64,000 nucleotides of DNA from an uncultured Ruminococcus sp. (GTDB lineage: Bacteria > Bacillota > Clostridia > Oscillospirales > Ruminococcaceae), in the NCBI GenBank assembly GCA_947627625.1, contig CANQWR010000002.1, forward strand, positions 1 through 64,000, read 5' to 3'. The notes beneath the pieces are model-generated. The model was given only the letters and a program-made list of their open reading frames with translations, searched no databases and had not been told where the DNA came from. Below, one piece after another: positions 17,024-60,150 of the stretch (positions within the stretch are counted from its first letter, which is position 1; every line of letters starts with the position of its first letter). Both the position numbers and the translations under genes were made by a program.

Positions 17024-17350
17024 TTTCAAGATTAACAATAGTAGAATTATCATGGGGGGGTCGGGGGCGGGGTATGGGGTGTCCCCATTTTCAAATCACC
17101 CCCGACGGGGGTTTGGGGGCAGAGCCCCCAATGGGGGTTCAGGGGGCAAAGCCCCCTGCCCCTAATCGTCCTAATATTAAGAGGGAACTGCACTTGTTCT
17201 CTATTATTTCAATAGAAAAATTTCTAAAAAAATATAATTTTAAGAAAATTATTTTTTGGGCAAAGCCCCCTGCCCCTAATCGTTAAAAACAGGGGGGTGG
17301 GGGCGTAGTCCCCCAATACCCTAAGCCCCAAGTCCATTATCGTTCCCCCC
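17024..17350 (+). repeat. Family A mosaic with a compact G-quadruplex motif
   Basis: A G-rich head at 17054-17079 reads G7, TC, G5, C, G4, TAT, G4. It is followed by G/C hairpin words, a shorter AT palindrome unit at about 17220-17260, and a second G/C block. It occupies the whole gap between cmk and the flavoprotein gene. No gene is seen. Confidence 0.88.
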
Positions 17351-27472: not shown

Positions 27473-27508
27473 CTGTATTTTGTTTTATTATTTATACTAT
27501 ACTCACAA

Positions 27509-27548
27509 AAAGGAGCAGGGTTCGGAAACCCTGCTCCTTTGTTTTTTA
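27509..27548. terminator. Bidirectional terminator after tRNA-Leu
   Basis: A 14-bp stem (AGGAGCAGGGTT with its complement, 27509-27522 and 27527-27540) is followed by a T-rich run. It also ends the convergent minus-strand gene at 27560. Confidence 0.9.
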
Positions 27549-27559
27549 TTTTTTTATTC

Positions 27560-28489
27560 TCACCAAGTGCCTGCATTGGGGTCAACGTAGCTGACTGCAC
27601 CGCCCGCATTGGGGTCGACATAACCGCCGCCGCCCGCATTGGGGTCAACGTAACCACCGCCGCCCGTGTTGGGGTCGACGTAACCTCCGCCGCCTGTGTT
27701 GGGGTCAACGTAACCACCGCCGCCCGTGTTGGGGTCGACGTAACCTCCGCCGCCTGTGTTGGGGTCAACATAACTGCTGACACCCCCGCCGCCTGTGTTG
27801 TTGGGTTCAACGTAACTGCTGACACCCCCGCCGCCTGTGTTGTTGGGTTCAACGTAACTGCCGACACCTCCGCCGCTTGTGTTGGGGTCAACATAGCTGC
27901 CGACACCTCCGCCGCTTGTGTTGGGGTCAACGTAACTGCCGATACCCTCACCGCCTGCATTAGGTGTGACATAACTGCTGTTTCCGTTTCCGTAATTCGT
28001 GTAACCGCCGTAATTTCCGTAATTATTGCCGTAGGTGTTGTTATTGTTGTTATTGTTATTGTTATTATTATTGTTTCCGTAGTAGTTGTTATTGTTGCTG
28101 TTTACATAGTTCTGGTCCGATGAAGTATATGTGTCGTTGTCGTCATAGTAGTAGTCGTAACTCCTGCCGTTTGCGTTAAATCCCGAACCCGTGGTCACGG
28201 TTATCACATAGTCCGTGCGGGTAGTGGCAGAAGTTGTATTGTAAGATTTTTGGGATTTGTCTGCGGACTGTGTTGTGACGGCAACGACACTGCCGTTGTT
28301 ATTGCCGTCCTGAACGAGATTTGGGTTTCCACGTCCGAGGTCTGAAATTATCTGTTGATTTGGTGTTATGGGGAACATTGTGAAAAAAAGCAGTATCAGA
28401 AAGGTCGCACCTATGAAACTGCCACACGACAAAAGGGTCAGTTTTGTTGATTTTTTCAGGGAACTGAAAAATTCGGAAATTTTAGACAT
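27560..28489 (-). CDS. Membrane-anchored protein with Gly-rich tandem repeats
   Basis: A 309-residue protein of unknown function. One N-terminal hydrophobic segment (about residues 16-42) is preceded by lysines, so the rest is probably outside the cell. Residues 75-170 are Asn/Tyr/Ser-rich low complexity, including an Asn run. Residues 173-309 are twelve repeats of the form YVDPNTGGGG (10-14 residues each). The ATG is preceded by GGAGTGTGA, the same leader word as the neighbour at 29289, suggesting co-ordinated expression. It could be a surface or spore-coat-like structural protein; this is inference. Confidence 0.75.
   Translation of the reverse strand: MSKISEFFSSLKKSTKLTLLSCGSFIGATFLILLFFTMFPITPNQQIISDLGRGNPNLVQDGNNNGSVVAVTTQSADKSQKSYNTTSATTRTDYVITVTTGSGFNANGRSYDYYYDDNDTYTSSDQNYVNSNNNNYYGNNNNNNNNNNNNNTYGNNYGNYGGYTNYGNGNSSYVTPNAGGEGIGSYVDPNTSGGGVGSYVDPNTSGGGVGSYVEPNNTGGGGVSSYVEPNNTGGGGVSSYVDPNTGGGGYVDPNTGGGGYVDPNTGGGGYVDPNTGGGGYVDPNAGGGGYVDPNAGGAVSYVDPNAGTW
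27563..27976 (-). repeat. Coding tandem repeat, 30-bp units in 60-bp pairs
   Basis: DNA repeats encode the YVDPN-Gly units. From about 27638 to 27760 two nearly identical 60-bp blocks alternate synonymous AAC/GAC-type words, which points to recent duplication by slippage or recombination. Confidence 0.85.
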
Positions 28490-29984: not shown

Positions 29985-30503
29985 GAACTTTTATTGTAAC
30001 GCTGTTGGGGGTTTCGTCCAAATTTTAATCAGAACGATAAGGGGGCGGTTGTCTCCTGACTTTGTCGGGGGGCGTTGTCCCCAAACCCCAAAAAATAATT
30101 TTATTAAAATTATATTTTTTTGGAAATTTCTTTTTTGTAAGCTGTCGGGGACTGTGCAAATTTTAATCAGAACGATAAGGGGCAGGGGGCTTTGACCCAA
30201 AAAATAATTTTCTTAAAATTATATTTTTTTGGAAATTTCTTTTTTGTGAGCTGTCGGGGACTGTGCAAATTTTAATCAGAACGATAAGGAGCAGGGGGCT
30301 TTGCCCAAAAAATAATTTTCTTAAAATTATATTTTTTTGAAAATTTCTTTTTTGTAAGCTGTCGGGGACTGTGCAAATTTTAATTAGAACGATTAGGGGC
30401 AGGGGGCTTTGCCCCCTGAACCCCCATTGGGGGCTCTGCCCCCAAACCCCCGCTGGGGGGAAGTATCCCCCCAGACCCCCCATGATTATTCCCACAGAGG
30501 AAA
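29985..30503 (-). repeat. Family A mosaic with three to four tandem ~109-bp units
   Basis: Reverse orientation of the 2880 array. GCAAATTTTAATCAGAACGAT recurs near 30017, 30155, 30265 and 30372, each followed by a G/C word and the AT palindrome TTTTTTGG/CCAAAAAA. It ends with the CATGGGGGG head complement and GGGAATAAT edge at about 30500. It fills the 760-bp gap before the small-gene cluster. Confidence 0.88.
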
Positions 30504-33283: not shown

Positions 33284-33450
33284 GTTTCCTGTGTGGGAAT
33301 AATCATGGGGGGTTCGGGGGGATTCTTCCCCCCGACGGGGGTCTGGGGGCAGAGCCCCCAGTGGGGGTTCAGGGGGCAAAGCCCCCTGCCCCTAATCGTT
33401 CTAACGGGGGTTCAGGGGGCGAAGCCCCCTGCTTCCTATCGTTCTTAAAA
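33284..33450 (+). repeat. Family A mosaic
   Basis: Edge GTTTCCTGTGTGGGAATAAT, CATGGGGGG head, then four G/C hairpin words and two TAATCGTTC/TATCGTTC ends. It lies between convergent genes. Confidence 0.87.
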
Positions 33451-35867: not shown

Positions 35868-36136
35868 AAAATTAAAACAGTAGAATTATTATGGGGGGTT
35901 CGGGGGGATACTTCCCCCCGACGGGGGTTTGGGGGCAGAGCCCCCAATGGGGGTTCAGGGGGCAAAGCCCCCTGCCTCTCAGACTTAAAACAGGGGGTTT
36001 TGGGGGGCGTAGCCCCCAACAGTCCACAGATTAAAATCTCTAAAAAATATAATTTTAATAAAATTATTTTTTGGGGTTTGGGGGGCGTAGCCCCCCCACA
36101 AAATAGCGTCCCCCAATCTAAAGGGGCGAAGTCCCC
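35868..36136. repeat. Family A mosaic overlapping the end of the next gene
   Basis: TTAAAACAGTAGAATTATTATG edge, GGGGGG head, G/C words, an AT palindrome unit at about 36035-36075, then GGGGGCGTAGCCCCC and GGGGCGAAGTCCCC words. The last word (36124-36137) is inside the reading frame of the gene at 36118. Confidence 0.85.
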
Positions 36137-41959: not shown

Positions 41960-42205
41960 TTGTGGACTGTCGGGGATCAGTGCAAATTTTAATTAGAACG
42001 ATAAGGGGCTTTGCCCAAAAAATAATTTTCTTAAAATTATATTTTTTTAGAGATTTTTTTGACTTGCGGATTGTCGTGGGCTTTGTGCAAATTTTAATTA
42101 GGACGATAAGGGGCAGGGGGCTTTGCCCCCTGAACCCCCATTGGGGGTTCTGCCCCCAAACCCCCGTCGGGGGGAAACATCCCCCCGAACCCCCCGTGAT
42201 AGAAA
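41960..42205 (-). repeat. Family A mosaic with two ~107-bp units
   Basis: Minus-strand orientation. GCAAATTTTAATTAG words near 41981 and 42088 are each followed by a G/C word and the AT palindrome; it ends with the complement of the GGGGGG head. It fills the gap between the tRNA cluster and rlmH. Confidence 0.87.
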
Positions 42206-55419: not shown

Positions 55420-55570
55420 GTGGGGGACTTTGTCCCCAAATTTTTATTGGAACGATTAGGGGCAGGGGGCTTTGCCCCCTGAACCCCCATTGGGGGCTCT
55501 GCCCCCAAACCCCCGTCGGGGGGAAGAATCCCCCCGAACCCCCCATGATTATTCTCACAGAGGAAACGCC
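55420..55570 (-). repeat. Family A mosaic
   Basis: Minus orientation: GGGAATAAT edge, GGGGGG head, G/C words and ATCGTTCCAAT. It lies upstream of the valS promoter. Confidence 0.87.
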
Positions 55571-56326: not shown

Positions 56327-56355
56327 TTGACAAATCGGAAATTACCGTCTATAAT
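56327..56355 (+). promoter_or_regulatory. Perfect-consensus promoter for amt-PII
   Basis: TTGACA, 17-base spacer, TATAAT. The start point near 56362 gives a leader of about 170 bases before the amt ATG. Confidence 0.9.
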
Positions 56356-56374
56356 ATACTTGTAAACAGCAAAG

Positions 56375-56429
56375 ACGCTGTGGAGACTGTCATTTTTGTA
56401 CGCAGTATCCACGGCGTTTTGTGTTTTTT
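56375..56429 (+). terminator. Leader terminator/attenuator upstream of amt
   Basis: ACGCTGTGGA (56375-56384) pairs with TCCACGGCGT (56408-56417), and an inner ACTG/CAGT extends the stem. The T-rich run TTTTGTGTTTTTT follows. It begins only about 13 bases into the transcript, so most transcripts should end here unless it is overridden. Confidence 0.75.
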
Positions 56430-56503
56430 ATTAAGTGCTTAATTCCATACACAACGGGGTGTATGATGCCTTTTTACAGGGTATCTGCACCCCTCCGCTT
56501 TTT
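56430..56503 (+). promoter_or_regulatory. Two hexaloop hairpins with overlapping terminator (ANTAR-target-like)
   Basis: Hairpin 1: ATTA, loop AGTGCT, TAAT (56430-56443). Hairpin 2: CATACAC, loop AACGGG, GTGTATG (56446-56465). Both loops have A at position 1 and G at position 4, the reported rule for ANTAR antitermination targets. The 3' arm of hairpin 2 lies in GGGGTGTA (56456-56463), which can instead pair with TGCACCCC (56486-56493) before TCCGCTTTTT, forming a competing terminator. Confidence 0.6.
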
Positions 56504-56530
56504 GCTGTAGTATTATAAGGAGGTAATTTT

Positions 56531-59991
<3,461 letters not shown>

Positions 59992-60023: not shown

Positions 60024-60150
60024 TGGGGGCTACGCCCCCAAACCCCCATTAACGATTAGGGGCAGGGGGCGTTGCCCCCTGAACCCCCATTGGGGGCTCT
60101 GCCCCCAAACCCCCGTCGGGGGGAAGAATCCCCCCGAACCCCCCATGATT
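60024..60150 (-). repeat. Family A mosaic
   Basis: Minus-strand orientation: GGGGGG head, G/C words and ATCGTTAATGG. It lies between pyrG and glnN, leaving 82 bases before the glnN start. Confidence 0.87.

Follow-up and report, generated by a model that had tools for sequence, protein, structure and literature searches.

A putative two-gate ANTAR antitermination leader upstream of the amt-PII gene of an uncultured Ruminococcus

The window, by which we mean the whole 64,000-nucleotide stretch of Ruminococcus DNA that was analyzed, carries a gene for an ammonium transporter fused to P-II (amt-PII), followed after a gap of 60 nt by pyrG, which is probably cotranscribed with it. The leader of amt-PII is approximately 170 bases long and lies downstream of a promoter that the earlier note had called perfect and that does agree with the consensus at every base. 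The features of the locus are as follows:

56327 to 56355, plus strand, sigma-70 type promoter TTGACA-17-TATAAT (consensus match, 12/12)
near 56362, plus strand, predicted transcription start
56366 to 56381, plus strand, hairpin A, ACAGC-AAAGAC-GCTGT, putative ANTAR site of gate 1 (5 bp, -5.4 kcal/mol)
56373 to 56429, plus strand, terminator T1 with its U-rich tract, gate 1 (56373 to 56419 folds at -24.0 kcal/mol)
56431 to 56442, plus strand, imperfect palindrome TTAAGTGCTTAA between the gates (hairpin 1 of the earlier note spans 56430 to 56443)
56446 to 56465, plus strand, hairpin B, CATACAC-AACGGG-GTGTATG, putative ANTAR site of gate 2 (7 bp, -7.0 kcal/mol)
56456 to 56503, plus strand, terminator T2, gate 2 (stem, 56456 to 56493; T-run, 56499 to 56503)
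56517 to 56523, plus strand, Shine-Dalgarno sequence AAGGAGG, read from the sequence
56531 to 58333, plus strand, ammonium transporter fused to P-II, the regulated gene (PF00909, 2e-115; PF00543, 1.2e-20)
58393 to 59991, plus strand, pyrG (CTP synthase), named by eye from the sequence alone
17096 to 17129, 30429 to 30462, 33326 to 33359, 35912 to 35945, 42143 to 42176, 55492 to 55525, and 60092 to 60125, copies of the repeat GGGGGCTCTGCCCCCAAACCCCCGTCGGGGGGAA (at most 3 mismatches)

The G+C-rich repeat GGGGGCTCTGCCCCCAAACCCCCGTCGGGGGGAA, with its seven near-identical copies in the window, was also seen by eye before gltB, a glutamine synthetase (GS) homologue, and asnB elsewhere in the genome and represents an intergenic repeat family. 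A separate open reading frame on the minus strand (27560 to 28489) contains a stretch rich in Asn together with numerous repeats of the YVDPN type.

The entire leader folded at -63.9 kcal/mol (z = -6.83 versus 200 shuffles). Hairpin A begins approximately 4 to 5 nt past the predicted transcription start, at the extreme 5' end of the transcript; its loop, AAAGAC (56371 to 56376), has A at position 1 and G at position 4, and the 5' arm of T1 overlaps both this loop and the 3' arm of the hairpin. The loop of hairpin B, AACGGG (56453 to 56458), also has A at position 1 and G at position 4. The 5' arm of T2 begins at the latter base, and in folding, hairpin B and T2 were mutually exclusive. T2 folded at -24.8 kcal/mol (56453 to 56503), and its T-run is displaced, beginning 5 nt after the stem. 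Since hairpin A overlaps the 5' arm of T1, gate 1 has the anatomy of gate 2, a hexaloop hairpin that is mutually exclusive with an intrinsic terminator. When the leader was folded as far as the T1 U-tract, the energy was -26.1 kcal/mol with T1 versus -14.7 kcal/mol with hairpin A enforced; at gate 2, it was -24.8 kcal/mol with T2 versus -13.9 kcal/mol with hairpin B enforced. These energies indicate that T1 and T2 should form by default, and therefore, something must hold hairpins A and B for read-through to occur. The leader, with its double gate, is genuine.

Several elements of the earlier note were thus confirmed: the strong first terminator, the overlap of its second hairpin (our hairpin B) with T2, and the presence of two hexaloops, AGTGCT and AACGGG, that both have A at position 1 and G at position 4. 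The terminator that it placed ahead of the switch is T1, and hairpin A, which had been missed, overlaps it. The double gate, regarded there as unusual, exists; however, it is the usual layout of the genus and not an oddity of this leader. With a simple terminator scan, the sole hit was hairpin B with its tail; T1 and T2 went unlisted, and shuffled sequences gave 2.6 hits on average, more than the 1 found here. No match to an ANTAR-target family was obtained in Rfam 15, which may hold no such model, at the gathering threshold or at E ≤ 10; weak Rfam matches in the leader (microRNA, snoRNA) were taken as chance.

The leaders of relatives were then compared. The genus sample comprised 125 genomes, 92 of which had an Amt-PII match at E ≤ 1e-60, and 70 leaders were read (30 loci from the Amt-PII search and 40 fetched later); the family sample comprised 297 genomes, 134 with Amt-PII, and gave 65 leaders outside the genus. 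In 69/70 genus leaders, a CAGC-like hexaloop hairpin lies within 30 nt downstream of the promoter, but these rows were chosen with a pattern requiring a purine at loop positions 1 and 4 and A at position 2; the leader that this pattern missed (L052) shows both hairpins in another scan. The distance from the -10 element to the start of the hairpin A stem is exactly 11 nt in 61 of these 69 leaders. When no loop sequence was demanded, the best hairpin 6 to 14 nt after the -10 element had a 6-nt loop in 97 of the 113 leaders, from the combined 135 (70 genus and 65 family), that have a TTGAC promoter; 8 had another loop size, and 8 had no hairpin. The 14 distinct post-promoter hexaloops all conformed to AANGRN, position 6 being A, C, or G. 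Loops A and B share this consensus, and their stems (CAGC/GCTG versus CAC/GTG) are unrelated.

With a stem of at least 4 pairs, two G-C pairs, and a leader stretch of 330 nt required, an AANG hexaloop hairpin was present in 126/135 leaders (70/70 genus and 56/65 family), versus 4/135 on the reverse strand (0/70 and 4/65). The AANG type was by far the commonest class of hexaloop hairpin, accounting for 137/246 in the genus and 84/235 in the family; the reverse-strand shares were 0/230 and 4/187, and the shuffle means for AANG hairpins were 2.8 and 2.5, respectively. This strict control replaced a reverse-strand count of 48/135 that had been made with looser stem rules over 400 nt, and the hairpin-B column of one scan, which chose by stem length alone and often took T2, was discarded. 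Among the nine leaders without an AANG hairpin, L119 has hairpin A just beyond the 330 nt used, and in L159, L171, L172, and L175, the hairpin is shorter or poorer in G-C pairs. None was seen in L144, L163, L166, or L170, all four of which closely follow an upstream gene. The hexaloop signal extends beyond the family: 68 of 80 named amt loci were tested, and AANG hairpins occurred in 26/40 loci titled Lachnospiraceae, Butyrivibrio, Eubacterium, and the like (reverse strand, 2) and in 24/28 titled Ruminococcus, Oscillospiraceae, or Clostridia (reverse strand, 3). Ruminococcus, including R. flavefaciens ND2009, was among the closest matches listed in the named-genome scan.

Comparison with the leaders of relatives showed that the loops and stems of hairpins A and B are kept. 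Alignment A1 comprised 45 of 60 nonredundant gate-1 stretches and alignment A2 comprised 35 of 55 gate-2 stretches; stretches in which one terminator contained both hexaloops, as well as those that were truncated at an end, carried long insertions, or had an odd layout, were dropped by eye. For T1, 96.7% of the cells were paired and 9/12 pairs had changed on both sides (45 leaders), with 87 doubly changed cells versus 21 in shuffles; for T2, in the gate-2 alignment, the values were 90.1% and 8/11 pairs. Hairpin B was paired in 91.8% of the cells across 35 leaders and had double changes in 3/7 pairs, which 177/500 shuffles reached, and in 14 cells, which no shuffle reached. Hairpin A was paired in 98.3% of the cells, with double changes in 2/4 pairs and in 2 cells only, a number that was equaled when the partner was slid by 2 columns; because its stem is nearly invariant, the support for this hairpin comes from its loop, its loop size, and its position. 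The terminator stems T1 and T2 therefore covary, and the stems of hairpins A and B are kept. Since the leaders were chosen with an AANG-like pattern, invariant loop columns in A1 and A2 are circular, and the claims about the loops rest on the pattern-free and control scans.

The hairpin 1 of the earlier note, ATTA-AGTGCT-TAAT (4 bp), is separated by 2 nt from hairpin B; folded alone, it had an energy of 0.0 kcal/mol. Its stem is not conserved: an ANNG hexaloop, with A at position 1 and G at position 4, was found in the 34 nt before hairpin B in only 15 of the 66 genus leaders with hairpin B. In the window, hairpin 1 is a weak candidate for a second hexaloop of gate 2. At this place, 55/66 genus leaders have a perfect palindrome of at least 8 bp (mononucleotide-shuffle mean, 5.2), a class to which the imperfect copy of the window does not belong. 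The palindrome varies in sequence by species (TAGCGCTA, TTTAAGTACTTAAA, TATGCGCATA) yet is self-complementary through its center, which reads AGCGCT in 36, AGTACT in 7, and TGCGCA in 5 of the 55. A recruitment (P1) role alone does not account for such a center, and the palindrome may be an operator, an RNA contact, or a weak recruitment hairpin. The earlier note had proposed a dual hexaloop of hairpins 1 and 2 behind a plain terminator as the target; the conserved units are instead hairpin A with T1 and hairpin B with T2, and that choice of the two hairpins was probably wrong.

Several leader architectures were found. The window and most of the genus have two gates in series, with hairpins A and B together at 59 to 95 nt from loop to loop. 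In other leaders, gate 1 holds the only AANG hairpin of at least 4 bp (L022, L073, L116, L117, L120, L121, L135, L142, L149, L150, and others), or only a gate-2 type hairpin is present (L108, L124, L125, L128, L131, and others); in the latter group, only a short distance separates amt from the gene before it, and no promoter could be seen. A single terminator contains both hexaloops in L132 to L134, L137, L139 to L141, L147, L148, L153, L155, and L158. In L132, L133, L137, L139, L148, L153, L155, and L158, the second hexaloop is near the tip of the shared terminator, and therefore, it is the first hairpin, not the second, that competes with the terminator there. Among 104 gate-1 leaders, which were chosen as having hairpin A, 87 (64 from the genus and 23 from outside it) have no second ANNG hexaloop with a stem of at least 3 bp before the T1 U-tract. 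Single-hexaloop gates are thus common, and the arrangement of two hairpins close together before a terminator is absent from gate 1 in these 87 leaders.

The source genome (87% complete) encodes exactly one ANTAR protein (PF03861, 54.5 bits; cutoff, 27.3). Its gene lies in the order gltB-gltD-GS homologue-ANTAR-purF-asnB, in which the glt, pur, and asn genes were named by eye; in one other genome (G073), the same cluster adjoins amt, divergently. ANTAR proteins were found in 115/125 genus genomes, mostly with two matches each, and in 132/134 family genomes with Amt-PII versus 85/163 without it (Fisher p = 8e-23, with genomes counted as independent of kinship and lists compared by hand). No ANTAR match was obtained in G158 (98% complete), which has a hexaloop leader (L111), or in G275 and, within the genus, G048 and G037, which have amt or amt ends; in G037, amt starts at contig ends. 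We examined 35 genus ANTAR loci (the 30 best scoring plus L002, L104, L105, L106, and L107), comprising 33 distinct genes, two of them duplicated. Only the source locus (L002) and L105 have its own gltBD-linked type; the other 31/33 represent a second paralogue type, which was not found in the source genome at its 87% completeness.

The phospho-acceptor Asp of the receiver, expected of an EutV-type regulator, is Asn in the source protein, and it is missing from 26/33 distinct genus proteins (28/35 rows) and 18/20 sampled family proteins. No kinase gene was seen by eye beside the ANTAR gene. When the source protein was aligned with Rv1626, EutV, and AmiR, five of seven RNA-contact residues of EutV were identical (K143, K147, K149, E160, and M172); Y164 is replaced by His, as in AmiR, and R142 is replaced by Ile (residue names from PMC8934654, with numbers offset by 2 to fit the PDB chain). 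The ANTAR protein called for by the earlier note is therefore encoded in this genome, beside gltB-gltD and the GS homologue, and its GS/GOGAT-gene neighborhood, together with the conserved loops and stems, supports the idea that a nitrogen gene is preceded here by a leader of the ANTAR antitermination type.

The neighbor of the ANTAR gene is a further candidate component:

L002:8709 to 10007, minus strand, GS homologue of the source genome, adjoining the ANTAR gene

A GS homologue occurs in the same locus as 32/33 distinct genus ANTAR genes (34/35 loci) and in 13/20 family ANTAR loci, as taken from the best hits listed. At Glu 129, 212, 220, 327, and 357, which we take to be the catalytic residues in the numbering of enterobacterial GS, the source homologue has S, V, Q, S, and T, respectively, in a comparison made against an archaeal enzyme. 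Of 34 genus GS rows, 33 lack the catalytic residue at 129 and 33 at 212, 32 lack it at 220, and all 34 lack it at 327; at 357, it is lost only in the source and L105 rows. Four GS homologues scored 264 to 296 bits (263.8 for one of them) with the NCBIfam GlnA model TIGR00653, whose cutoff is 429.15. With these residues replaced and the equivalog score under the cutoff, the source homologue does not qualify as an active type I glutamine synthetase. The catalytic residues look intact in several other genera; therefore, their loss seems secondary and the GS/ANTAR pairing older. These comparisons suggest a regulatory role for the GS homologue, which is likely a candidate pseudoenzyme nitrogen sensor.

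Two models, R1 and R2, were built from the amt leaders, and their amt matches are therefore by construction. In the source genome, R2 matched amt only, and R1 had seven matches at E ≤ 1. One of these (C28:6822-6869, which is L198:1501-1548; E = 0.0098) has a TTGACA-17-TACAAT promoter, a single hexaloop hairpin, AAGC-AATGGT-GCTT, and a terminator and precedes a circularly permuted ATP-grasp gene. Another, at 27505 to 27549 on the minus strand of the window (E = 0.0017), is an ordinary terminator without hairpin A and was rejected; since it outscores the C28 site, the latter rests on its promoter and hairpin and not on its E value. The C28 site looks like a true gate and suggests a wider regulon. 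Four weaker R1 matches in the source genome had E values of 0.06 to 0.78. The gltB, glnN, and asnB leaders and the gltD-GS gap showed no such gate when read by eye; on L002 and L033, R1 had no match at E ≤ 1 and R2 had one only (E = 0.68, on L033).

R1 matches at E ≤ 0.001 were found in 97/125 genus genomes, and 20 regions with 21 R1 sites, none coinciding with a known full amt, were fetched. At nine sites (L204 to L210, L212, and L215), a double-gate amt-type leader precedes pyrG with no full amt there, and in L207 a short amt remnant lies between the leader and a pyrG-like gene. In L204, L207, L209, and L210, G replaces A at position 1 of loop B. Four sites are amt starts (the first site of L211, L213, L214, and L217, the last with a shortened amt), and the second site of L211 and that of L219 lie before a gene that by eye resembles a glutamine-amidotransferase-fold hydrolase. 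L223 has a promoter, a hexaloop, and a terminator before an open reading frame. The sites of L216, L218, and L220 to L222 have no TTGAC promoter, look like 3' or chance terminators, and were rejected.

In our judgment, it is likely that the amt-PII operon, probably including pyrG, is preceded by a two-gate ANTAR antitermination leader, with the GS homologue as a putative pseudoenzyme sensor. It can be envisioned that the nascent RNA, when unbound, folds into T1 or, later, T2 and transcription stops. A nitrogen signal, whose direction of action is presumed, would activate the ANTAR protein, which would capture hairpin A once the first 20 nt or so have emerged and so block T1; the same protein or a second dimer would then capture hairpin B and block T2. 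The GS pseudoenzyme would act as the nitrogen sensor, holding or freeing the ANTAR protein. Because there is one AANGRN loop per gate, gate 1 must on this model act from a single 5'-terminal hexaloop, with no upstream recruitment hairpin. Several observations count against the model: the absence of an ANTAR match from G158, despite its hexaloops, and from G275, G048, and G037; the eut precedent discussed below; the near invariance of hairpin A; the doubly changed pairs of hairpin B, whose number shuffles often reached; the displaced T-run of T2; the replacement of EutV R142 by Ile; the second paralogue type of 31/33 genus ANTAR genes; and the GS homologues outside the genus with intact catalytic residues.

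Pairs of this kind are familiar: in AmiC-AmiR, a sensor protein is combined with an ANTAR antiterminator, and AmiC holds or frees AmiR. NasS-NasT is likewise a sensor protein with an ANTAR antiterminator (PMC3795266), NasS holding or freeing NasT. As in these systems, the Ruminococcus ANTAR gene has as its neighbor a gene whose product may be a ligand-binding partner; unlike them, the partner is a GS homologue, and the putative partnership is known from the genes alone. In Clostridium thermocellum, Clo1313_2030 is an ANTAR protein in a GS-GOGAT cluster, as in Ruminococcus, and has been proposed as an ammonia-sensitive antiterminator, with the nitR antiterminator of C. acetobutylicum cited beside it (PMC4676874); the passages on Clo1313_2030 describe no target RNA and mention no degeneration of GS. 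The EutV/EutW-controlled eut leaders of Enterococcus faecalis share with the amt leader the hexaloops with A at position 1 and G at position 4, a hairpin that overlaps the terminator, an ANTAR regulator, and a nitrogen theme. In contrast to them, the amt leader has one hexaloop per gate and two gates in series, the first 5' terminal, and, in contrast to EutV, the Ruminococcus receiver has no phospho-Asp and no kinase gene was seen beside its gene. ANTAR control of amt is already of a known kind, since ammonium transporter and P-II genes are among the predicted ANTAR targets of Ramesh 2012 (PMC3369931), which also reports transcription units of Desulfotomaculum acetoxidans that each carry several ANTAR sites; these predictions concern the same gene class under a dual-hairpin model, which by design leaves single-hexaloop gates unmatched. 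Neither single-hexaloop antitermination nor a pseudo-GS/ANTAR pair was found described in the literature searched, outside which the older NitR work lies, and that literature showed no counterpart of this variant, with its serial gates that each use one 5'-terminal hexaloop.

By the eut precedent, single hexaloops should fail, because deletion of P1 from eutP abolishes induction (Ramesh 2012, PMC3369931) and lengthening of the linker by 20 nt abolishes antitermination (Walshe 2022, PMC8934654); EutV binds each isolated hexaloop, but antitermination needs the dimer and both hairpins, and the latter authors encourage study of the extent to which a site with one hexaloop is functional. A classical dual hexaloop, in which hairpin 1 would serve as P1 and hairpin B as P2 of gate 2, with T1 as a simple terminator or attenuator that is controlled otherwise, would fit the side-by-side position of the two loops before T2, both with A at position 1 and G at position 4, and the palindrome does give an AGCGCT or AGTGCT hexaloop in some relatives. 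We nevertheless consider it improbable, given the rarity of the ANNG hexaloop in the genus, the null folding energy of hairpin 1, and the overlap of T1, too, by an AANG hexaloop in genus leaders; moreover, its linker would be 2 nt, and in eutP linkers of 3 or 14 nt already cut induction drastically (PMC3369931). A split arrangement, in which hairpin A recruits and hairpin B antiterminates through one ANTAR dimer that opens T1 and is handed on to T2, is a possibility that we hold to be rather doubtful and, as a special form of the preferred two-gate model, is not exclusive of it. The co-occurrence of A and B in most genus leaders speaks for it, as do the folding of the top of T1 with hairpin A formed, which would shorten the path, and the several other genera that hold both hexaloops in one terminator, 18 to 34 nt apart; against it are a spacing far above the 5 to 12 nt of eut (PMC3369931) and the existence of leaders with A only (such as L022, L073, L116, and L135) and with the B type only (such as L108, L124, and L131).

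That some RNA-binding protein other than ANTAR binds the hexaloops would account for G158 and for the differences at R142 and Y164, but hexaloops with A at position 1 and G at position 4 that overlap a terminator are the known ANTAR signature (PMC3369931), and with the strong co-occurrence of ANTAR and Amt-PII, we regard this as very unlikely. A role of gate 1 as the source of a short, EutX-like decoy RNA to titrate the ANTAR protein is more improbable still. Termination at T1 would yield an RNA of approximately 60 nt with the hexaloop sequence, but T1 traps loop A in its stem, where it could hardly be presented, and the mutually exclusive layout points to antitermination; this reading was set aside for the former reason. 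Extending the preferred two-gate model, we postulate, tentatively and with somewhat more doubt than confidence, that Ruminococcus and its relatives use antitermination from a single 5'-terminal hexaloop, with two serial gates before amt and control by a dead GS in place of phosphorylation.

In conclusion, this leader family offers many natural single-hexaloop gates, in one-gate and two-gate versions, so that the function of a single hexaloop is directly testable. The leaders suggest that an ANTAR protein may open a stop signal from one hairpin, where the textbook case needs two, and sites of this type would escape any search in which two hairpins are required. They also point to a possible nitrogen control circuit in rumen fiber degraders in which a GS homologue is the likely sensor.
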